Below are positions 9,935 to 24,276 of a stretch of DNA of 24,276 bases, piece after piece. Every line of letters begins with the position of its first letter. Positions within the stretch are counted from its first letter, which is position 1. The DNA comes from a virus: positions 1 through 24,276 of the IMG/VR virus record IMGVR_UViG_3300035698_011231. One strand, 5' to 3'. The notes beneath the pieces were generated by a model, which was not told the origin of the DNA, did no database searches, and saw nothing but the letters and a program-made list of their open reading frames with translations. The position numbers were made by a program, and so were the translations under genes.

Positions 9935-12900
9935 ATGCCTAGATCAAATAATTACTATGATAATAAGTTGGATGAGGTAGAACCACAGCAACCTCAATCT
10001 TTTGATACTCAAAAGCAACAAAATATTAGCCTAGGTATCCAGCCAGAGCAAATAGAACAAAACCAACAAAGAGCTTTAGAAAATGCGACAGTAGATTCAG
10101 CCAGAATTGATGCCAATAGATCTCTAGTTAATAGCTGGCCATATGAATTAGCAGGAGCTGTATTTGATATGCCAGATCAAGGATATTGGGATTCACTTAG
10201 TGGAACCGAGAAAGCTAAACATATTGGAAAAGAATCAGCTAAATTTTCTTGGAATTTTTTAAAAGCATTTCCAAAAGAAATAGTGAAAGCACCATTAGCG
10301 ATAAGCCACAGTTTGATGGATTTAGAAACAGCAGCTTTAGACAAAATATTTGGATATAAACAAGGAGAAAACAAGGCTCTGGATGCTTTAAGATACGACA
10401 AAACATATTCTTTGCCAGTATTAGGAGAAATAAAAGGGGTTAGAGCTACATTTGATGAAGGAATAAAGGCTGGTTTGCCGCCTTTTTTCGCAGCAGTGCA
10501 TTCAACTGGAAGATTAGCTGGAGATATAGCGATAACAGCTTCTTTATCAGAAGCTATTAACGCTACTGTTTTTAACCCGAGAGTGAAAACAATTAGTAAA
10601 ACGAAAACGGTTGACAATCCATTTTTAGTGGCAGAAGAAATAAAGGTTGGATCAGAAGCAGGAGCAATAGCAAAACAAGCGGGAGGAATATTAGAAGCAA
10701 CTGCAGATAAATCTATACAGTATATGCCAGTTCCAAAATCAATAGCAACTAAATATAAAGGAAATTCTAATAATATAAAATTAAAAATAGTCCCATATGG
10801 GGCGGGGAAGGCAAAGGTTTCTATTGTAAGAATAAGCAAATCTTGGATAGACAAAACAAAAGATTTTTTAACAAATAAGTTTGGTAAAAGCAAAGTAACA
10901 GAAGGAATGTTTGGGCCAGAGCTAGAAGTTGATGCAGGGCTAATAAAATATAATCCAGAAGTATTTACACAAAAACCATCGGTTACGATTAAACCAGTAG
11001 CAGAAGCTCCATTGGCAGGAGTGATGGAAAATATTGCTACATCAAAATATCAAACAAATTTGTCAGTAGAAGCTAATAAACAAAACGGAGCAAGCCAGCA
11101 ATATGAAAAAAATGTAGTAGATCCATATGCGAAAGAAGAAACAACCAGCATAAATCAGAGAGCTATGAACAAAGAGAAAAAAGAGAATATTCCGTCAGTA
11201 ATGAATAAACCATTAAAGGGATTCGGAGATTCTGCGGTAACAGAAAAACAAACAGGTCAAATATTAAATTTATCAAAAAGTAAAGAAATAGAAGATACAA
11301 CATTACAAGCAATAACAAAAGTAATTTCTGGAAAAGATAATATATTTGAATTAACGCAGAATGAAGCGTTCGATGTTTCAGAAACAGTTAGAAACTTTCC
11401 AGGTGATGTTGAATTAGAAAATTTAGATTCATCTGTTTTGTTAAGATCATACACTCATCCAGCTAGATATTGGATGGAACCGATAGAAAGAACAATGGGA
11501 GTCCCTGTATATTCTGAAATATATTTAAGATTTGAAACTGGTGCTAGATTATTAAAAATATATTCTGAAAAATGGCGACAAGAGGCAAGAAATATTTATG
11601 GAAAATATGCTAAACCAAAATATTTAGAAGAAAGAAGATTAATAACATCTTATATAGAAGGGAATAAAGATGTAATTACAAAAAATGGATCATTATCTCC
11701 AGAAACAAAAGCAGATTTAGTAAAAGTAGGAGATTGGTTGACTGAACAATATAAAGAGTTTTTTAAAAAGTATAATATAGATTCAAAAAAATGGTTTGAA
11801 ATATATTCGCCTAGATTAAAAAAGAGAGGAAGTATCTCTGAGTTTTATAAATCGTCAGAATTGCCTCTAGAAATAAAAGCATTCTTTGAATTTGAAAGAG
11901 AAGGTTCATTAGATATTTTAGAAGATGATTCATTAGCTTTGTTTGACATGTATATTAGAGCTGGAGGAAAAAAAGATTTTTTAAGTAAACCATTAGAAGA
12001 TTCAAATAAAATTTTGTCAACAGCACCAGAAAATGTTAAAGCAGCCACTAACGATTATATACAAGAAAAAATGGGTTATCAGGGGAAAACAGAAGAATTT
12101 ATGAATAATTTTGGTAAAAAATTATCAAACAAATCAAAAGGAATAATACCAGAAACAATAATGAAAGATGTCGTAGATACAGCCATGACATTGTCTTATG
12201 CGGGAGCTCTTGGTTTGCCAAGAATATTGCCAATATTAAGAAATACTGTTCAACCATTGCTATTAACATATCCAGACATTGGACCAAAGTGGTTTATTGA
12301 AGGAGTAAAATTGTATAGAAAAAATGGAATAAAAAAATGGAAAGATAAAGGATTTTTAGTGGAAATGGGAGTCCCCTATGGAGCAGAGTTATCAGAAGCA
12401 TCTGGAAAAGGAAAATTTGGGAAAGCAGTAGATATGTATAAAGGAGCAAACAGAATTGCGATGAAACCATATGCCTCAGCTGATGCTAGGAATAGATCAA
12501 TAACTGCTTATAGTGCAGAAGCCAGAATCGATAACGCTATTGAAAGAATAAAAAATGGAGAAATAGATTATAGACAATTTGAAAGAGAAATAGACATGGC
12601 TGGATTTAATCCAACGCTGCAAGATGTAATAGCAAAAAAACTAAGAGAAAATACAGCAGAATCTATAGAAGAAGCCAAAGATTTAATGATAATGGATATT
12701 TTAGATAGAACACAATTCCCATATAGAAAAGGGGCAGAAACAAGAATGCATTATGGAATGAAAGGAAAAATGGGATTACAATTTTCTCAATGGACATGGG
12801 AATACGCCTTTACTTTAAAATCTTGGGCAGCCAGAGGACAATGGGAAAAATTTGTCAGATGGTATGCTATGAGTTCGGTATTAAAAAGATCAGCAGAAGA

Positions 12901-13540
12901 ATCTTTTGGAGTAGATATTGACAAGTGGGTAAATTTTGGACCAATATCTGGAATACCATTAGGACCATTAGCTAATGTGGTCGGATCTATGTATAGAGGA
13001 ATAGAAGCAAGTGCCACAAAGATGGATGACGATGTTAATAAATATTGGAAAGAAATTGTTGGAACAATGAAAATATATGGAGGAATCGCCACTGGAGTTG
13101 GCACGCAAAAATTAGTGGACTTCTATAAATCAATAGATAGATATGAAGCTGGAATAGCAGTTTCGACAGATGAAGATCCTAATAAAAAATTTGGAGTTTG
13201 GTCGTCAACTGGCAAATTAATTAGATGGGTAGATTTTGCAGAATTATTAAAGATAGCAACAGGATTTAAGCCAACAGAAGGGACAGAGCAATCAGAAAAA
13301 ATAAGAGCAGCAAAAAAAGACAATTTAATATATCAAAAAAAGATTGATGAAGCTATGAATTATCTAGTGGATGGAAATTTTGAAAAATTTAATGAAAAAG
13401 TAATTTCTGAACAATTAATAATTTCAGACATTGCTACAAAAATGAAATCATATAGCATCCCACTAGATAAAAGAATTTTTGAAAGGCTGTCATTGCCTTT
13501 AAAAGATAAATATTTTAATCTATTTTATCCATCAAATTAA
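9935..13540 (+). CDS. Large putative internal virion or ejection protein, 1201 aa
   Basis: This is the largest gene in the window. The first 60 residues are Gln/Asn-rich and disordered-looking; a moderately hydrophobic Ala/Gly-rich region follows (about 75-215); residues about 300-440 look like linker; a helical core covers about 480-1130, including a hydrophobic stretch near 749-780 (TAMTLSYAGALGLPRILPIL) and a Trp-rich segment near 940-985 (LQFSQWTWEYAFTLKSWAAR). No protease, lysozyme or polymerase motif was seen. Large proteins with amphipathic helices located between portal and capsid genes are often ejected with DNA through the envelope, so I infer an ejection role. The gene starts and ends with 4-nt gaps. 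A 238-codon leftward frame inside (10177-10893) is a shadow. Confidence 0.6.
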   Translation: MPRSNNYYDNKLDEVEPQQPQSFDTQKQQNISLGIQPEQIEQNQQRALENATVDSARIDANRSLVNSWPYELAGAVFDMPDQGYWDSLSGTEKAKHIGKESAKFSWNFLKAFPKEIVKAPLAISHSLMDLETAALDKIFGYKQGENKALDALRYDKTYSLPVLGEIKGVRATFDEGIKAGLPPFFAAVHSTGRLAGDIAITASLSEAINATVFNPRVKTISKTKTVDNPFLVAEEIKVGSEAGAIAKQAGGILEATADKSIQYMPVPKSIATKYKGNSNNIKLKIVPYGAGKAKVSIVRISKSWIDKTKDFLTNKFGKSKVTEGMFGPELEVDAGLIKYNPEVFTQKPSVTIKPVAEAPLAGVMENIATSKYQTNLSVEANKQNGASQQYEKNVVDPYAKEETTSINQRAMNKEKKENIPSVMNKPLKGFGDSAVTEKQTGQILNLSKSKEIEDTTLQAITKVISGKDNIFELTQNEAFDVSETVRNFPGDVELENLDSSVLLRSYTHPARYWMEPIERTMGVPVYSEIYLRFETGARLLKIYSEKWRQEARNIYGKYAKPKYLEERRLITSYIEGNKDVITKNGSLSPETKADLVKVGDWLTEQYKEFFKKYNIDSKKWFEIYSPRLKKRGSISEFYKSSELPLEIKAFFEFEREGSLDILEDDSLALFDMYIRAGGKKDFLSKPLEDSNKILSTAPENVKAATNDYIQEKMGYQGKTEEFMNNFGKKLSNKSKGIIPETIMKDVVDTAMTLSYAGALGLPRILPILRNTVQPLLLTYPDIGPKWFIEGVKLYRKNGIKKWKDKGFLVEMGVPYGAELSEASGKGKFGKAVDMYKGANRIAMKPYASADARNRSITAYSAEARIDNAIERIKNGEIDYRQFEREIDMAGFNPTLQDVIAKKLRENTAESIEEAKDLMIMDILDRTQFPYRKGAETRMHYGMKGKMGLQFSQWTWEYAFTLKSWAARGQWEKFVRWYAMSSVLKRSAEESFGVDIDKWVNFGPISGIPLGPLANVVGSMYRGIEASATKMDDDVNKYWKEIVGTMKIYGGIATGVGTQKLVDFYKSIDRYEAGIAVSTDEDPNKKFGVWSSTGKLIRWVDFAELLKIATGFKPTEGTEQSEKIRAAKKDNLIYQKKIDEAMNYLVDGNFEKFNEKVISEQLIISDIATKMKSYSIPLDKRIFERLSLPLKDKYFNLFYPSN

Positions 13541-14602: not shown

Positions 14603-15766
14603 ATGGCCCTACAAACACCAGGGATGACAACTTCATACGACCAAAGTGCAACCTATATTCTTAGTTTGGACGAAATGGTAAGTGCTATTTTGCTAGATGA
14701 TGCTGATGTCTTATCAACATTGGGATTTTCTAATGAAGGGAAGCCAGTCACCCAAACAAAACACGAATGGGATGAAGACGAATTAAACCCAGTAACTGTT
14801 ACAGCAGGAAGAATTTTAGAATCAGCTGTATCAGCTACAGGTTCAGCCTTGTGCTTAACTAGCACAACCCACGCAGGAAGAGTAACTGCTGGAACATTAT
14901 TGACTGACCAGTTATCAGGCAAAAATGAAGTTTTACAAGTTACAGGAGTAAGTGGAGTTTCTGCCACAGTAACCCGTAGTTATGGTGGAACATCTGCTGA
15001 AACTCATGGAGCTACAGCTGCCTTTGATATTATTTCAAACCCACGCCCTCAAGGAATGACTGGACCAAAAGATGAATCGGTAGCCAGATCAAGAAGTTAT
15101 AATTACACTCAAATTTTCTCTAAAGGTGTAAGATTGTCAGGAACTGCTCTTGCTATTGAACACAATGGAATTGGAGCAGAGGATACATACCAAATTGATA
15201 AACGAATGCGTGAGTTGATTAGAGAATTAGACAGAACAATCATTATGGGTGTTAGATCGTCTGCTAATGTTGTAGATTCAACCTATGGAACAATGGGTGG
15301 TTTAATCGACTATATCAAACATGCTTCTAGCGGAAATATTACATCGACAGCAGAAACATTAGTCCCTAGCGTTTTAAATGCTATGATAAAACAAATTTGG
15401 GACGATGGAGGAAATCCAGATATGGTATTAGTTGGCGGAACTCAAAAACAAAAAATATCTGCCTTTGATAAAGAATATCGAAGATCAACAATGGATTCAC
15501 GCAGAGCTGGATTCACCGTAGAGGAATTTGTTTCAGATTTAGGTATCAATTTATCAGTAGTTGTCGATCGTTGGATTCCTAGCGATATGGCTATTGTAAT
15601 TGATTCTTCAAGAATTTTGATCAAATCTTTACAAGGAAGATCATTCTTCTTAGAAAAACTTGCCAAAACAGGTGATTCAGAAAATTGGGAGGTAGTCGGT
15701 GAATATACCATGGAAGTCAAGCAAGCTGCTAAAGCACATGCAATCCATTGGAATCTTAAACAATAA
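14603..15766 (+). CDS. Major capsid protein, SU10/DUF5309 type
   Basis: The 387-residue protein shows the pattern of this HK97-fold family: VTQTKHEWDEDELNP (49-63), a beta insertion (about 78-143), then SYNYTQIFSKGVRLSGTALA, a conserved helix with MRELIRELDRTIIMG, TMGGLIDYI, a DMVLVGG turn, and a C-terminal core with LVVVDRWIP-like strand and EKLAKTGD...EYTMEV. It would form the icosahedral shell. The insertion contains VTGVSGVSATVTRSYGG (113-129), which resembles part of the fibre protein. It starts 20 nt after the scaffold stop without SD. The family was first noted for Escherichia phage SU10, a podovirus, and is widespread. Confidence 0.9.
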   Translation: MALQTPGMTTSYDQSATYILSLDEMVSAILLDDADVLSTLGFSNEGKPVTQTKHEWDEDELNPVTVTAGRILESAVSATGSALCLTSTTHAGRVTAGTLLTDQLSGKNEVLQVTGVSGVSATVTRSYGGTSAETHGATAAFDIISNPRPQGMTGPKDESVARSRSYNYTQIFSKGVRLSGTALAIEHNGIGAEDTYQIDKRMRELIRELDRTIIMGVRSSANVVDSTYGTMGGLIDYIKHASSGNITSTAETLVPSVLNAMIKQIWDDGGNPDMVLVGGTQKQKISAFDKEYRRSTMDSRRAGFTVEEFVSDLGINLSVVVDRWIPSDMAIVIDSSRILIKSLQGRSFFLEKLAKTGDSENWEVVGEYTMEVKQAAKAHAIHWNLKQ

Positions 15767-16205: not shown

Positions 16206-17201
16206 ATGAAAATTTTAGTAGCGAACCAGACATTAGACATTTTAGCTGGAAGTGAAACGTATATATTAACTATGGCAACAGAGTTAAAGCGTTTAGGGCA
16301 TGAAGTGACAGCCTTTAGCCCACAATTAGGGATTATAGCCACTAAATTAGAGGCGATAGGAGTTAAATGTGTAAATACTCTAAATGGAGACGGAAGCCAC
16401 CAAATAAAGCCATTTAACCCAGTTTTAGAAGAAGCTGAGGGTAAGTTCGATGTGGCGATTTGTGCTCATTATGAAATTACTAAGGAAATAAGAAGAAAAT
16501 TTTCTAAATTACCAATCATAGCTGTTTGCCATGGGATAATACACTCAAATCCAAAAACTGGAGAAATTTTTCCAGAACATCCAGTCACGGATATGAATAT
16601 AAACCAATACATAGCAGTATCAGAAGAAGTCCAGAATTTATTAAAATCTGTTTATAATATTGATTCAGTAGTAATAAGAAACTGTTTCGATTTAGAAAGA
16701 TTTAAAAAAGAAGGAAAATTAAAAGAAAAACCAGAAACAATTTTGGTTAATTCAAACTATTGGGGAGTGGACGGAGAAATAAATGACATTATAAAGGATG
16801 TGGCAAAACATTATGATGCAAAATTTATAGGAATCGGAGCTAATTTTGTCCCCACTTATGAAACAGACTTAGTAATTAAAGATGCTGACGTGGTTTTTGG
16901 AATGGGGAGATCAGTGATAGAAGGAGTATGTGCCGGAAAGATTGGAGTTGTCCATGGCAGGTGGGGAACCGGGGGTGTTATTACTCCAGAAACATATAAA
17001 ACATTAAAGTTAACAAATTTTTCTGGAAGACCAGTTAAAGGAGAAGGAAAATTATTAAGTGCTAATGAAATTATTGAGCAAATCGATAATGCGTGGAATC
17101 AAAAAACAGTTAATGCTAATTATGCCATTATAAAAAAAGAAAATGATGTTAAAGTGGTGGCGGAAAAACTTTTAGCTATTGCTAATGAATTAATTAAATA
17201 A
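16206..17201 (+). CDS. Glycosyltransferase, GT-B fold (GT4-like)
   Basis: The 331-residue protein opens with MKILVANQTLDILAGSETYI, the glycine-rich start typical of GT4 enzymes, followed by an N-terminal Rossmann-like half (to about 160, including IIAVCHGII and QYIAVSEEVQNLL) and a shorter C-terminal half with DADVVFGMGRSVIEGVCAGK, the usual donor-binding E-x7-E-like region. It would move a sugar from a nucleotide-sugar donor. Donor and acceptor are unknown. It is the first gene after the capsid terminator, 87 nt downstream of the previous stop, and heads a cassette of four related genes. No SD; the ATG follows an A-rich leader. Confidence 0.78.
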   Translation: MKILVANQTLDILAGSETYILTMATELKRLGHEVTAFSPQLGIIATKLEAIGVKCVNTLNGDGSHQIKPFNPVLEEAEGKFDVAICAHYEITKEIRRKFSKLPIIAVCHGIIHSNPKTGEIFPEHPVTDMNINQYIAVSEEVQNLLKSVYNIDSVVIRNCFDLERFKKEGKLKEKPETILVNSNYWGVDGEINDIIKDVAKHYDAKFIGIGANFVPTYETDLVIKDADVVFGMGRSVIEGVCAGKIGVVHGRWGTGGVITPETYKTLKLTNFSGRPVKGEGKLLSANEIIEQIDNAWNQKTVNANYAIIKKENDVKVVAEKLLAIANELIK

Positions 17202-17213
17202 TAGTTAAAAATT

Positions 17214-17975
17214 ATGAAAATAATAGGATTAACAAAAATTAGAAATGAATCCAAGATTATAAAAGAAACATTAGACCATTGGGGGAAAATCTGCACAGGA
17301 GGAATTTATGTTGTCGATGATGCTTCTAATGACAATACAGTAGAAATTTGCAAAGAACATAAAGATGTTAAAAAAGTTATAGAAATAAAAAGCTGGGATT
17401 ATGACAGAGAGAGAGCAGAGTGGTTTAATAGGCAATTAGCTCTAGAAAAAGCCCAAGCAGAAGCAGAACCAGACGATTGGTTTGTTTATTTCGATGCAGA
17501 CGAAAGACTTTATTTCGATAGATGGGATTTATTTTTTGATAAAGAAGTTGGGGCCATAGCTTGCAAATTATATGATATTTATATAACGAAAGAAGACGAA
17601 AAAGAAATAGACCATAATAAAAGGAATTTTGTTGGACCAGAGTATAGAACAATAGTCTTTTTCTTCAAAAACTCGCCATATTTAAGATATAATAAACCAG
17701 ATCAAAGAATAGTTGATTTGCCAGGAGATTGTAAAATTGTAATATCTGGAATAATAAAACATTTCGGGAAAGGATTGTCAGTTGAACATTGGGAAGAAAC
17801 TTGTGATTACTATATAGATTTTTGGCCTAAATATGCTAATAAATGGAAAGATAGAAAAGGAAAAGCAGTCCATGAAAAGTCAGACTTTGGGAATGAATTG
17901 ATAAAATTTAGTGATGTTATTAATGGAAAAGAAACAGGTTTTTCTTTAGAAGACAAAATATATGGTAAAAATTAA
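17214..17975 (+). CDS. Glycosyltransferase family 2 (GT-A fold)
   Basis: The 253-residue protein has a GT2 beginning, GLTKIRNESKIIKETLDHW, then IYVVDDASNDNTVEIC with Asp35/Asp36 for the nucleotide, and WFVYFDADERL with the metal-binding DxD at Asp94-Ala-Asp96. The C-terminal part (GIIKHFGKGLSVEHWEETCD) resembles GT2 enzymes found in surface-polysaccharide and phage clusters. Both core motifs appear intact. It lies 12 nt after the GT4-like gene. Acceptor unknown; virion protein or host glycan are candidates. Confidence 0.82.
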   Translation: MKIIGLTKIRNESKIIKETLDHWGKICTGGIYVVDDASNDNTVEICKEHKDVKKVIEIKSWDYDRERAEWFNRQLALEKAQAEAEPDDWFVYFDADERLYFDRWDLFFDKEVGAIACKLYDIYITKEDEKEIDHNKRNFVGPEYRTIVFFFKNSPYLRYNKPDQRIVDLPGDCKIVISGIIKHFGKGLSVEHWEETCDYYIDFWPKYANKWKDRKGKAVHEKSDFGNELIKFSDVINGKETGFSLEDKIYGKN

Positions 17976-17994
17976 AAATAATTAATTTAAAATT

Positions 17995-18468
17995 ATGAAA
18001 ATTCAAATTTCTCCAGAGAAAAAAATTGATGATGCTATGGTTATTTGGCCATACAAAAAAAATGATGTTGATTTAGTTTTAGATCCAAGACCCCCGTATG
18101 GTTTAAAATTTAAAAAAGGGTCTATAAAAACAATTTATGCATTCGGGATATTGGGAATTACAAAAGAAAAAGAGATTATAGAAACTCTTAAAAGTTTTAT
18201 AGAAATTTTAGAACCAAAAGGAGAACTATATATAATTGAACAAGATTTAGATTATATTTTAAGATCAATGCTTGGTGGCGATCTAAGCGTTGAAGAATTT
18301 AACAAACATTATAGAAAAGAAACATATCTAAACCAAGATGAGATAGTAAAATATTTAGAAAAGGTTGGTTTTCCTGTTGATAAACAAGTTTGGTGGCAAG
18401 AATCAAATAAATTTATTAAAAAAAGTTCTGAAATAATTATTTCAGCAGTAAAAAATAATAATCAATAA
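17995..18468 (+). CDS. Methyltransferase-like protein lacking the SAM motif
   Basis: The 157-residue protein keeps the later landmarks of small class I methyltransferases found in glycan clusters: DVDLVLDPRPPYGLKFKKGS (25-44), TIYAFGILGI (46-55) where active relatives have a SHVLEH-like stretch, and ILEPKGELYIIEQ (71-83) matching the post-motif of Methyltransf_11-type folds. At the N-terminus, where LNLGCG-type motif I should be, it reads MKIQISPEKKIDD. It is therefore probably a pseudoenzyme or binding partner, unless SAM is bound differently. It sits between two glycosyltransferase genes, 19 nt after one and 1 nt before the next. Confidence 0.6.
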   Translation: MKIQISPEKKIDDAMVIWPYKKNDVDLVLDPRPPYGLKFKKGSIKTIYAFGILGITKEKEIIETLKSFIEILEPKGELYIIEQDLDYILRSMLGGDLSVEEFNKHYRKETYLNQDEIVKYLEKVGFPVDKQVWWQESNKFIKKSSEIIISAVKNNNQ

Positions 18469-18469
18469 T

Positions 18470-19672
18470 ATGGAAAATCAAAAAAAAATAAGAAAACCAT
18501 TGAAATTTGCTTCTCCAGATGGACCAACAGAAAAATATGTAAAACAACAAAGCGTAGAAGAGAATCCAAAGAATGTTGAATTTAATAATGCTTTGCCAAC
18601 CGCCTTGTTTATTGTTAGGGATAAAGGAGGATGTGGTTATTACAGATGCTACCAACCAGCCTCTTTTTTAAGAACAAGAGGTTTAATGAACACAATAGTA
18701 GATTTCAAAGAAACAACAAGAGAACATATTTTGCAAGCAGATATTATTATATTTCAAGAAGCTGGATCAATGAAATCAGTGGAAGCAATGAATTTTGCTA
18801 AAGAAAATGGAAAACCAGTTGTAATAGAAATGGATGACGAAATAAGAACAGTATCACCACATAATATTGGTGGCTATGGGGCCTGGAACCCAGGAACGCT
18901 ATTTATCCATAGATTTATTGAACAAATAAAAAGAGTTGATGCTGTAGTTGTTTCTACTCCACAATTAGCTAGAGAATATTCTTTGTATAATGATTCTATT
19001 TTTGTTTTACCTAACTTTTTAAATGAAAATAAGTGGGATAATAACCAAATTAAAAAACAAGACGGATATTTAAGAATAGGCTGGGCTGGAGGAAACGCCC
19101 ATCTTGATGATTTGAAATTAGTTTCAAAAGTAATAGAGAAAATTATTAAAGAATACAAGGGAAAAGTTAAATTTGAAACAATGGGAATGGTCAAAAAAGA
19201 ATTAGAGAATGTATTCTCTAATTTGGAAGAATTTCATGAAACTTGTCCAAAATGTGGTTATCAAGGAGAATCGGTCACTTGGACAGGAGAATCTTTAGAC
19301 AATTACCCGCTAGTTTTAGCTAGTCATGGGTGGGATGTAGCGATAGCTCCAATAGTTAATACATCGTTTAATTGTGCTAAGTCAGATTTGAAATTAAAAG
19401 AATACGCTGCCACAGGATACCCAATAGTAGCATCAGCAGTGACTCCATATATCGAAGCTAAGGAAGATGGGTGCGATGTTCTATTGGCAAAAACATTCGA
19501 TCAATGGTATAATTATATTAAAGAGTTGTTAGATAATGAAGACAGAAGGAAAGAAATAGTTAAAAATAACAAGAAATGGGTTTCTGATAAATGGATTGCT
19601 GACAATATTATTCTATATTATGATGCTTTTAAGCAAATAATAGAGAGAAAAAATAAATTAATTAAAAAATAA
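18470..19672 (+). CDS. Glycosyltransferase, GT-B fold, with a Cys-x2-Cys insert
   Basis: The 400-residue protein has a disordered basic N-terminus (1-40), a first domain with GGCGYYRCYQPASFLRTRG (53-71, typical of phage-type GT1/GT4 enzymes), VVIEMDDEIRTV, a linker, and a C-terminal donor domain with RIGWAGGNAHLDDL (202-215) and SDLKLKEYAATGYPIVASA (305-323). An insert carries ETCPKCGYQGE (257-267), half of a zinc-ribbon-like site; a matching second Cys pair is not obvious. It starts 1 nt after the previous stop and is the last of the cassette. Acceptor unknown. Confidence 0.78.
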   Translation: MENQKKIRKPLKFASPDGPTEKYVKQQSVEENPKNVEFNNALPTALFIVRDKGGCGYYRCYQPASFLRTRGLMNTIVDFKETTREHILQADIIIFQEAGSMKSVEAMNFAKENGKPVVIEMDDEIRTVSPHNIGGYGAWNPGTLFIHRFIEQIKRVDAVVVSTPQLAREYSLYNDSIFVLPNFLNENKWDNNQIKKQDGYLRIGWAGGNAHLDDLKLVSKVIEKIIKEYKGKVKFETMGMVKKELENVFSNLEEFHETCPKCGYQGESVTWTGESLDNYPLVLASHGWDVAIAPIVNTSFNCAKSDLKLKEYAATGYPIVASAVTPYIEAKEDGCDVLLAKTFDQWYNYIKELLDNEDRRKEIVKNNKKWVSDKWIADNIILYYDAFKQIIERKNKLIKK

Positions 19673-20562: not shown

Positions 20563-21210
20563 ATGGAAAATATAAATAATAAAATAGACAATTTATTACA
20601 AATAAGACAAGATTCAATGGTTAATTATGCTAAATCAACCAAAGAATTGATTGATATTGGAGTAAAAATTAAAAATAAAGAAACTGATGATATAACATTA
20701 CCAATATCATTCGAACAATATTTAGATCAATACAATGTTTCATCTTTAGAATTTGAGTGGGAAGTAATGTATAAAGATGGAACAATTTTAAAACAATTTA
20801 ATGGTAAAGTTGAAACTTTATTTAATCAAATAAATCAAGAGCAGTTAAAAAGTGTATCCTTTATATCAAATTTTAATTGGCCATCAGAGGCAGGGAAAAA
20901 TCCAAGAATAATAGCAAAATTGAATTGGGAAACTGGACTATTTGAGTTTACAAACGGGTTTGTGCCTCAAGAAGTTAGAGCAGAGGTTTGCATGAACCCA
21001 TTAGCTGGTAATAAAAAGCTGATAATAGTTACTAGAAAAAGTTTTAAGTTTTCTAAAGGAGAAATAGACGATAGATATAAAGAATTTTTTCCATTCTTTG
21101 ATGAATTGTTCTATTTCAATAGATTTATATTAGGATATGAAGTGCCAAATGTTGGGAAAAAAACAATAATAATCAGCCCAAATGGGACAATTTTAAATTT
21201 TAAAAATTAA
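20563..21210 (+). CDS. Hypothetical virion-region protein, 215 aa
   Basis: The N-terminal 45 residues are helical and polar (MENINNKIDNLLQIRQDSMV), followed by a mixed region with many aromatic residues (SSLEFEWEVMYKDGTIL, PFFDELFYFNRFILGYEVP) and a beta end (KKTIIISPNGTILNFKN). No catalytic motif, signal peptide or membrane segment is clear. It lies directly before the fibre gene with a 4-nt gap, so a fibre-attachment, baseplate or chaperone role is possible, but nothing in the sequence proves it. Confidence 0.6.
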   Translation: MENINNKIDNLLQIRQDSMVNYAKSTKELIDIGVKIKNKETDDITLPISFEQYLDQYNVSSLEFEWEVMYKDGTILKQFNGKVETLFNQINQEQLKSVSFISNFNWPSEAGKNPRIIAKLNWETGLFEFTNGFVPQEVRAEVCMNPLAGNKKLIIVTRKSFKFSKGEIDDRYKEFFPFFDELFYFNRFILGYEVPNVGKKTIIISPNGTILNFKN

Positions 21211-21504: not shown

Positions 21505-23289
21505 TTGATGTTTTTGTCTATCACAAAAAAAATGATTGACGACATACCAGATAATTTCTTAAAACTTGATCAAACAACTCCTCAAACAATAGCAAGCGGT
21601 ATTCCTCTATTAGACGCAGTCAATGAAGATTTTACTGACCAAAACGAATTAGTAAATAAAAGATATGTAGATAGTGCCGTGGCCACGGTCGGAACAAGAT
21701 TTTATATGCTTGATGCTGCTGATGGAGATGTTGCTGCATACAAACAAACAGCTCTTTCAGCTAGTGCAGAAGCGACTGCTAGTGTTTCAGCAAGTGTAAA
21801 CGCAGAAGCAGACACTATTATAGAAGAATGGATAAGTCCGACTGGGTTAGATTGGACAACATTACAGCAAGGGGTTTATGACCTTAATGTTTTTGTAGAA
21901 AAAACTGGAGGTAATAGAGATGTAAGAGTATTTTGGAGATTTTATGAAAGAAAAGCCGACACTTCGGAAGTTTTAATTGCAACATCTAATTTAGGTGATT
22001 TAGTAACTGATAAAGAAAGACAAAGGATTTATGCAACATTGGCTTCTGATTATACTCCATCAGCAGGCTCTCGTTTAGTCGGAAAAGTTTATTTTAATAC
22101 AGACGGTGGCTCACAAAATACCACTTGCGTTTTGTATTATAGAGGAGATGAAGGCAGCCATTGGCAGATACCAGTTAGCCAAGACTTTTTAGACGATACT
22201 TATGCTGCTATTGACCAGACAATGTATATAGGTACAACTCAAGTAGCAATCAATAGAGGAACTGCAGCACTAACACTAGCTGGACTAACTCTAACAACAC
22301 CTGACATTGGCACGCCTAGTGCAGGAGTATTAACTAACGCAACAGGATTACCCGTAACAGGATTAGCTAATGGCACAGATGGAGAACTAATAACTTGGAG
22401 TGCAGCAGGAGTAGCAACTACAGTAGCCGCAGGAGATGCAACACAAGTCCTTACATCGAATGGTGCAGGAGCAGCGCCTACATTTCAAGACGCTTCTGGA
22501 GGAGTATCACAATTATCAGACTTATCAGATGTTGGAGTAACTACCGCGACAGATAAGAATGCTTTAATGGCAGATGGTGATAGTTGGGAAAGTAGAGCAT
22601 TAGTAGAAGCAGATATTTCTGACTTAGGGACTTATGCACCAACTACAGCACCAACATTTGCTACTTCAATAACTGGCTCTTATCTAACAGCATCAGAGAT
22701 GCTTATAACTGATGGTGATAAGAAGATTGTTTCAGCCGCAGTGGCAACTTACCCTAGTTTAACTGAACTTGCTTATGTAAAAGGAGTAACTAGTGGAATT
22801 CAAACACAAATAGGAAATAAGGCAGCTAAAGGTGCTAATAGTGATATAACATCAATTACAGGGCTTACAACAGCTCTTACAATAGCTCAAGGTGGAATTG
22901 GTGCTACAAGTTTAGCAAGTGCAAGTATTCCTACTTATACAAGTACAAATACACTAACTAATAAAAGAATTACTCAAAGAGTCGGAGCTTTTACTTCTGA
23001 TGCTACTCCAGATATTAATAGCGATAATTATGATGCTATTACTATCACAGCTTTGGCAGTAGCAATTACTGATGTAAACATGTCTGGTACTGGAACTAAC
23101 TTCCAAAAATTATTATTTAGAATAAAAGATAATGGAACAGCAAGAGCAATAGCTTGGGGCTCTGACTTCGAAGCTAAGGGAGTCGCTTTACCAACAACAA
23201 CAGTAATATCAAAGGTCTTAATTGTTGGATTTATTTATGACACAGTAACTGCAAAATGGGGATGCGTAGCAGTAGCTAACGAAGCATAA
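21505..23289 (+). CDS. Tail fibre protein, main part
   Basis: This frame, 594 codons from TTG 21505 (the first ATG is 21508), continues the module at 21215 after a one-base shift and lacks its own credible start. Order: helix LSITKKMIDDIPDNFL with a typical LVNKRYVDSAVATVG trimer-initiation motif (about 45-65); a beta domain (70-230); Ala/Thr/Gly-rich shaft repeats (235-470, with ITGLTTALTIAQGGIGATSL); and a C-terminal domain (about 495-594) with SDNYDAITITALA and LLFRIKDNGTARAIAWGSDF, common in phage fibres. It should form a trimeric host-binding fibre. The stop is 1 nt before the next gene. Confidence 0.82.
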   Translation: MMFLSITKKMIDDIPDNFLKLDQTTPQTIASGIPLLDAVNEDFTDQNELVNKRYVDSAVATVGTRFYMLDAADGDVAAYKQTALSASAEATASVSASVNAEADTIIEEWISPTGLDWTTLQQGVYDLNVFVEKTGGNRDVRVFWRFYERKADTSEVLIATSNLGDLVTDKERQRIYATLASDYTPSAGSRLVGKVYFNTDGGSQNTTCVLYYRGDEGSHWQIPVSQDFLDDTYAAIDQTMYIGTTQVAINRGTAALTLAGLTLTTPDIGTPSAGVLTNATGLPVTGLANGTDGELITWSAAGVATTVAAGDATQVLTSNGAGAAPTFQDASGGVSQLSDLSDVGVTTATDKNALMADGDSWESRALVEADISDLGTYAPTTAPTFATSITGSYLTASEMLITDGDKKIVSAAVATYPSLTELAYVKGVTSGIQTQIGNKAAKGANSDITSITGLTTALTIAQGGIGATSLASASIPTYTSTNTLTNKRITQRVGAFTSDATPDINSDNYDAITITALAVAITDVNMSGTGTNFQKLLFRIKDNGTARAIAWGSDFEAKGVALPTTTVISKVLIVGFIYDTVTAKWGCVAVANEA

Positions 23290-23290
23290 T

Positions 23291-24276
23291 ATGAAAATAT
23301 TAAATAAAATAAAAAAGAATTGGAATTTTTCTAAAGGAGTTAAAGAAAATGTTATATATTTTAATACTCAGAAAGAATTAGAAAAAAAACATCGGAAAAG
23401 AATGTTATGGTTTACTCTAGGTATTTTATCTTTATGTTTTATTACTCAAAATCCACTTTTAGCATTATTGACAATGGTTTTAGCTATTTCTTATGGCTCT
23501 GAATATGTCTTTAATAGTGGGACTACTACTTATATTTCTGTTTCGTTTTTAGATAGTACTCATTTTGTTGTAGCTTATAGAGATGAAGGAAATTCAAATT
23601 ATGGTACAGCTATAATAGGAACTGTTTCTAGTGTAAATCAAATATCATATGGTTCCGAATACGTGTTTCATTCTGCGGCTACTACTTATATTTCTGTCTC
23701 ATTGCTAGATAGTGCTCATTTTGTTATAGCTTATACGGCTGTTGGAGTTTCGGATTATGGTACAGCTATAATAGGAACTGTTTCTAGTATAAATCAAATA
23801 GCATATGGTTCTGAATATGAATTTAATTTAGCGCCTACTTCTTTTCTTTCTGTTTCGTTATTAGATAGTACTCATTTTGTTGTAACTTATAAAGATGGTA
23901 ACAATTCAAATTATGGTACAGCTATAATAGGAACTGTTTCTAGTGTAAATCAAATAGCATATGGTTCTGAATATGTCTTTAATAGTGGGTCTACTTATGA
24001 TTCTTCTGTTTCGTCGTTAGATAGTACTCATTTTGTTGTAGCTTATAGAGATGAAGGAAATTCAAATTATGGTACAGCTATAATAGGAACTGTTTCTAGT
24101 ATAAATCAAATAGCATATGGTTCTGAATATGTCTTTAATAGTGGGACTACTACTTATGCTTCTGTTTCGTCGTTAGATAGTACTCATTTTGTTGTAACTT
24201 ATAAAGATGGTAACAATTCAAATTATGGTACAGCTATAATAGGAACTGTTTCTAGTGTAAATCAAATAGCATATGG
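23291..24276 (+). CDS. Membrane-anchored 52-residue-repeat protein, 3' end outside the window
   Basis: From the ATG at 23291, 1 nt after the fibre stop (TAATATG), the frame is open to the window end (328 codons). Residues 1-37 are basic, 38-66 form a hydrophobic segment (MLWFTLGILSLCFITQNPLL) acting as a membrane anchor or signal, and from residue 68 five complete 52-residue repeats follow, each with SVS.LDS.HFVV.Y and YGTAIIGTVSS. Four strands per about 50 residues suggests beta-propeller blades (inference). The coding strand is T-rich with TCT, GTT and TTT codons, unlike the A-rich neighbours, hinting at transfer. A receptor-binding, host-surface or exclusion protein is possible. Confidence 0.7.
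   Translation, partial: MKILNKIKKNWNFSKGVKENVIYFNTQKELEKKHRKRMLWFTLGILSLCFITQNPLLALLTMVLAISYGSEYVFNSGTTTYISVSFLDSTHFVVAYRDEGNSNYGTAIIGTVSSVNQISYGSEYVFHSAATTYISVSLLDSAHFVIAYTAVGVSDYGTAIIGTVSSINQIAYGSEYEFNLAPTSFLSVSLLDSTHFVVTYKDGNNSNYGTAIIGTVSSVNQIAYGSEYVFNSGSTYDSSVSSLDSTHFVVAYRDEGNSNYGTAIIGTVSSINQIAYGSEYVFNSGTTTYASVSSLDSTHFVVTYKDGNNSNYGTAIIGTVSSVNQIAY
23492..24271 (+). repeat. Five tandem 156-bp coding repeats
   Basis: Repeat starts, taken at the TAT of TATGG.TC.GAATA, lie at 23492, 23648, 23804, 23960 and 24116, with a sixth beginning at 24272: exactly 156 bp each time. The segment around GGTACAGCTATAATAGGAAC is identical in all copies, while two short windows vary. Copies 3 and 5 share one variant (KDGNNSN) and copies 1 and 4 another (RDEGNSN). 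Confidence 0.92.

Follow-up and report, generated by a model that had tools for sequence, protein, structure and literature searches.

A probable seven-bladed beta-propeller binding protein, cut at its fifth blade, in an exchangeable tail-region slot of a phage whose capsid protein is of the SU10 type

Background

New beta-propellers have been amplified from single blades in all of the major propeller lineages, and viral members were noted in a 2022 survey (PMC9218822). These highly repetitive, recently amplified propellers have blades that are more than 60 % identical to one another and blade numbers that are biased towards the value typical of their family (PMC9218822; PMC6805158). A propeller has also been described in the tail of phage SU10, where the seven-bladed nozzle protein gp17 forms the core of the nozzle that links the adaptor and the short fibres (PMC9509320).

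Here we describe a gene with features of both. The window, i.e. the whole stretch of DNA analysed, is an entire IMG/VR record (24 276 bases, linear, with no completeness stated), and its last ORF encodes five tandem 52-residue units whose mean identity (0.78 for protein and 0.87 for DNA) lies above the 60 % used to recognize nascent propellers. The array resembles the highly repetitive propellers in this respect, in its amplification from single blades and in the bias of blade number to a family value, but differs from them in belonging to a family without a confident sequence match in Pfam, PHROGs, NCBIfam or PDB and in the addition of an N-terminal hydrophobic segment. The likeness to SU10 gp17 is that of a tail propeller in a phage with the same type of capsid protein, although the window propeller has a highly repetitive gene to itself and sibling genomes have another candidate nozzle gene (encoding about 690 aa) downstream of an adaptor-like gene. 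The fold class and amplification from single blades are already known, so that this kind of protein is not new; the blade sequence family is unnamed, and it is this family, the candidate anchor and the slot exchange that are added here. We think it probable that the gene product is a binding protein folded as a seven-bladed beta-propeller, that its source is a tailed phage whose capsid is of the SU10 type, and that the gene, which breaks off at blade 5, occupies an exchangeable attachment slot.

The truncated propeller gene

The last ORF begins with an ATG at position 23291 of the plus strand and extends over 23291-24274, open at the contig end. A basic N-terminus is followed by a hydrophobic stretch, five units of 52 aa (156 bp) and the start of a sixth, as follows.

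23291-23488, plus strand: residues 1-66, the N-terminal part of the propeller protein, with a K/R-rich head and then the hydrophobic stretch
23402-23488, plus strand: hydrophobic stretch, residues 38-66, with N-P-L-L at its centre; candidate membrane anchor or hairpin
23492-23647, plus strand: blade 1 (repeat unit and blade HMM)
23648-23803, plus strand: blade 2, the most diverged copy and the sole one with several synonymous differences
23804-23959, plus strand: blade 3 (repeat unit and blade HMM)
23960-24115, plus strand: blade 4 (repeat unit and blade HMM)
24116-24271, plus strand: blade 5 (repeat unit and blade HMM)
24272-24276, plus strand: first five bases of blade 6, to the contig end (from the sequence)

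Tandem Repeats Finder reports a period of 156 with five copies, and the unit starts (23492, 23648, 23804, 23960 and 24116) are always 156 bp apart. An earlier note on this DNA had described exact 156 bp repeats; the register is indeed perfect over five 52-residue units, but the units are 81-93 % identical in pairwise DNA comparisons and not exact copies. The longest exact repeat of the array is formed by the final 104 bp of the contig (24173-24276), which duplicate 23861-23964, and further exact repeats are 84 and 66 bp long. Because of this terminal duplication the gene has very probably been cut by assembly within its array, and the simplest reading of the contig end is that short-read assembly halted in the gene's own repeat; the earlier note had named such an assembly risk. 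The contig breaks off five bases into unit 6, so that it lacks the gene's 3' end and the full blade number, and the five copies seen are probably what assembly left of an expected seven. A search of viral contigs for the missing 3' part with an exact 34-mer of the blade core did not find it. The contigs of three relatives (L007, L009 and L013) likewise end within blade arrays and, since such arrays end short-read contigs, binding genes like this one are often truncated in viral collections.

Blade family and predicted fold

A protein search found relatives at 13 loci in viral contigs and eight in microbial genome contigs, and their units were counted with a blade HMM built from the window and its relatives. 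Exactly 7, 14 or 21 units are present in 21 of the 22 non-redundant complete arrays from the other viral and microbial contigs, the exception (L010, 5305-7902) having 13 with a one-blade gap. Two remote members stand apart: L014 is too diverged for unit counting, and in L025 a single set of seven is clear, accompanied by weak partial sets. A unit number fixed at seven or its multiples argues for a closed ring. The 21- and 14-blade proteins (L002:6858-10790 and L011:4819-7407) correspond to three and two rings per chain. The seven-blade domain is also present in L015, L016, L019, L022 and L021, from Gracilibacteria, other Patescibacteria, Celaenobacter and an archaeal MAG, and several of the microbial homologues, including L019 and L022, have signal-peptide-like starts. 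This is thus a widespread, unnamed family of 52-aa blades, in fixed multiples of seven and spread over viruses and microbes, which could easily be made into an annotation profile.

The AlphaFold2 model of a complete, anchored phage homologue (L008; mean pLDDT 78.8) shows a pattern of seven four-stranded blades in residues 99-460, mostly at pLDDT 82-97, and that of the window protein has five confident blades (pLDDT about 95); in both, the 52-aa unit is a blade of four antiparallel strands (pLDDT about 90-95), and its length lies within the roughly 40-60 residues of propeller blades. Together with the 7, 14 or 21 blades of the relatives, these models bear out the propeller-like domain that had been suggested from the repeats. 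A ring of seven blades is seen in the L008 model, and 21 of the 22 complete relatives have seven blades or a multiple, the window gene being cut after five; each 52-residue unit would form one four-stranded blade, and an N-terminal strand after the hydrophobic stretch would close the ring.

Foldseek matches the L008 model to seven-bladed WD40 propellers, such as Ciao1 (PDB 3fm0; TM 0.72 on the target), at about 13 % identity, a likeness of fold and not a demonstration of WD40 superfamily membership; no WD40 or other propeller Pfam model matches the sequence. Many uncharacterised viral proteins are also matched (best 24 % identity). The window model, an incomplete one of five blades, matches six-bladed fucose lectins (AFL/FleA and AOL) and sialidases. 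Sequence searches of Pfam, PHROGs, NCBIfam and PDB gave just weak, scattered matches under the cut-offs, and no annotated phage record matches the window protein, the one weak match of a relative among those records being to a marine single-virus genome.

Genomic setting and the exchangeable slot

By its head genes, the phage has a capsid protein of the SU10 type (PF17236) and a portal resembling that of SPP1. Three genes serve as landmarks.

14603-15766, plus strand: major capsid protein, SU10 type (PF17236, E 3e-71)
20563-21210, plus strand: conserved gene that borders the variable slot on its left in three siblings (50-69 % identity, gene order)
21505-23289, plus strand: tail-fibre-like gene directly upstream of the propeller gene, its start drawn at TTG (phrog_3030, phrog_12321)

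The matches of this last gene to phrog_3030 (E 1e-23) and to the tail fiber family phrog_12321 (E 2e-8) support the earlier statement that the array gene directly follows a tail fibre. A search for its relatives gave solely unrelated fibre genes that have short segments in common with it.

Three sibling records of about 42 kb each (L026, L027 and L028) encode capsid proteins 91, 77 and 71 % identical to that of the window and have a common gene order of portal, capsid, three glycosyltransferases with a methyltransferase-like gene, and then the homologue of 20563-21210. In the window the glycosyltransferase and methyltransferase-like genes occupy 16206-19672, between the capsid and tail genes, and all are kept in the three siblings at 50-78 % identity (32-68 % for the methyltransferase-like gene). 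The gene in the slot that follows is different in all three siblings, and encodes in one a protein with kelch-like repeats, behind a 246-aa gene, in another a LamG protein (PF13385) and in the third a glycine-rich Gly_rich_2 protein (PF21722), each with a C-terminal stalk of the QAKARI type. In these sibling slot proteins (L046:3260-4942; L045:16741-18027, minus strand; L044:15895-17571, minus strand) varied N-terminal binding domains are joined to a common repetitive QAKARI stalk and a similar C-terminal tail, a modular exchange of fibre heads.

On the 3' side of the sibling slot lie an adaptor-like gene (PF24175, below the cut-off, E 2e-4) and then the gene of about 690 aa. The slot of the window contains a 91-aa gene, the tail-fibre-like gene and the propeller gene, and its adaptor-like gene would be expected past the contig end. 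With three genes here against one or two in the siblings, the equivalence of the slots is one of position, and the QAKARI stalk is not seen in the window gene as far as the contig runs. The propeller gene does share with tail-fibre and receptor-binding genes a location in the tail block, in an exchangeable position, and since this slot holds other binding domains in the siblings, attachment to the host surface is its likeliest job. The combination of candidate anchor and propeller recurs in L008 and L009, two phages whose head genes are unrelated, each time close to a tail-fibre-like gene and to glycosyltransferases, and the tail-fibre neighbourhood speaks for this reading. We infer that the propeller would be placed on the virion and bind host surface structures, as part of the tail fibre or beside it.

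The N-terminal region

The N-terminal head has 12 K/R against 3 D/E, and the region is 50 % identical to that of L009 and more loosely like that of L008, two unrelated phages. The best 19-residue Kyte-Doolittle mean of the hydrophobic stretch is 1.94, a moderate score, and its NPLL motif is identical in the window protein, L008 and L009. The membrane anchor proposed in the earlier note is thus present as a hydrophobic stretch but, because a polar Q-N-P interrupts it in the middle, an anchor is plausible and not proven; the stretch might form a hairpin in the membrane or one kinked helix, or might serve for docking. In the AlphaFold2 model of the window protein the first 68 residues have pLDDT below 50. 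No linker separates the stretch from blade 1, and in the L008 model the strand immediately after it belongs to the ring. A search of viral contigs for the anchor joined to other head domains found none beyond L008 and L009. One match of the anchor model, in genome G013, was not counted, since it lies at the beginning of the L019 propeller, where the sequence resembles a signal peptide, and contains an in-frame stop.

A protein exported via a membrane anchor would not enter virion assembly in the cytoplasm, which counts against placing the propeller on the virion. It might instead be displayed on the infected host cell, with its basic N-terminus inside and the propeller outside, and there block receptors (superinfection exclusion) or alter adhesion together with the phage glycosyltransferases. 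This would explain the conservation of the positive-inside charge and hydrophobic stretch in three unrelated phages, and it is in keeping with the glycosyltransferases of all three genomes, which adjoin the propeller gene in L008 and L009, and with the signal-peptide-like N-termini of L019 and L022. We nevertheless regard it as unlikely, though the strongest of the alternatives, because the gene lies in the tail block directly after the fibre gene, where the siblings put stalked binding domains, and because of the polar centre, the moderate hydrophobic score and, in L008, the strand that passes without a linker into the ring.

A broader version of this display merits still less credence: that anchor and seven-bladed propeller form a mobile cassette carried across unrelated phages, showing a recombining surface, variable on one face, on the infected cell, and working as a device for surface modification or exclusion that is based on a still-amplifying propeller.

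Variation among the blades

Under the preferred reading, of a virion-borne binding propeller, the blades would stem from recent amplification followed by partial homogenisation or shuffling through recombination, with the loops of one face either free to vary or under selection to do so, which would make the binding face uneven. The variable positions lie in and beside loops 1-2 and 3-4, on the same side of the four-stranded meander, and these loops are also the most variable positions family-wide. The 16 positions of this face contain 13 of the 20 codons that vary in amino acid (Fisher p 4e-5, an optimistic value, as the face boundaries were drawn after seeing the data); with strict AlphaFold2 loop limits, the figures are 6 of 9 against 2 of 8. 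A comparison of synonymous differences, suggested in the earlier note, shows mostly amino-acid changes: with copy 2 set aside, the remaining four show an amino-acid difference at 14 codons and a synonymous one at a single codon. Such an excess could reflect selection acting on the loops or an exchange of loop cassettes among homogenised blades, and in five copies either would look the same.

Loop 3-4 is exactly shared by copies 1 and 4 and by copies 3 and 5, and loop 1-2 of copy 5 resembles that of copies 1 and 4. There are 33 four-gamete conflicts among 11 informative sites, and such conflicts between loop sites mark the copies as mosaics, so that the sharing of variants reported earlier is real. 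The accompanying proposal of a duplicated or converted 312 bp two-repeat block fared less well: codon 48 does alternate between Val and Ile (V,I,V,I,V) along the copies, but with three V and two I this alternation has a 1 in 10 chance of arising, and lag-2 similarity does not exceed that of copies in shuffled order (fraction 0.27), so the block is not demonstrated. The strand composition does differ from that of the neighbours in AT skew (-0.15 in the array, +0.02 to +0.38 in the other genes of the window) but not in GC skew, which is ordinary.

Part of this pattern could be an assembly product, since short reads cannot order 104 bp identical stretches and blade number or order might be wrong and the mosaic partly artificial; the exact repeats, the longest of them at the contig end, and the related contigs that end in arrays are compatible with this. 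It is a distinctly improbable account, however. Each of the five units differs from the rest and stays in frame, those complete relatives whose blades are less alike come out of assembly with exactly seven, and the exact repeats are shorter than typical 150 bp reads, so that most junctions could be spanned; the truncation is already part of the preferred explanation, which leaves the mosaic as the one artificial element. An array that quickly gains and loses units, with copy number as the variable in phase or antigenic variation, would suit the near-identical DNA cores and mosaic loops but is barely credible, as relatives are locked to multiples of seven and the arrays are unchanged in the near-identical sister contigs L004/L005/L006 and L012/L013 (with 2 of 4 and 2 of 8 SNPs, respectively, inside the propeller genes).

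The earlier view of a recombination-driven variable binding protein accordingly has indirect support in the one-face variation and the binding-domain slot, with a mosaic that fits recombination between blades, whereas recombination-driven length variation is disfavoured by the constant blade number. A fixed repeat number with slow, uniform divergence had been named as evidence against that view, and of these the fixed number, at multiples of seven, is found. With its near-identical blade cores, one-face variation and binding-domain slot, the gene appears to show, in a phage, a propeller that is still being amplified. A diversity-generating retroelement target was considered and rejected: no reverse transcriptase (RVT_1) was found in the window (a partial contig), the three siblings, L008 or L009, and variation is not A-limited, 11 of the 39 variable sites having no A in any copy.

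Other features of the genomes

No tRNA or Rfam matches were found. A host among the Patescibacteria was considered but not assigned: the propeller occurs in 2 of the 287 genomes sampled, and a capsid protein match in one genome, at just 24 % identity. The window also encodes a 1201-aa protein without a family match (9935-13540), whose sibling homologues are 36-54 % identical and vary in length, L026 reaching 1615 aa. In L044 a 318-aa gene without a Pfam match (10623-11576, minus strand) lies downstream of a holin-like gene; its product resembles a papain-type peptidase by eye and may be a lysis enzyme.
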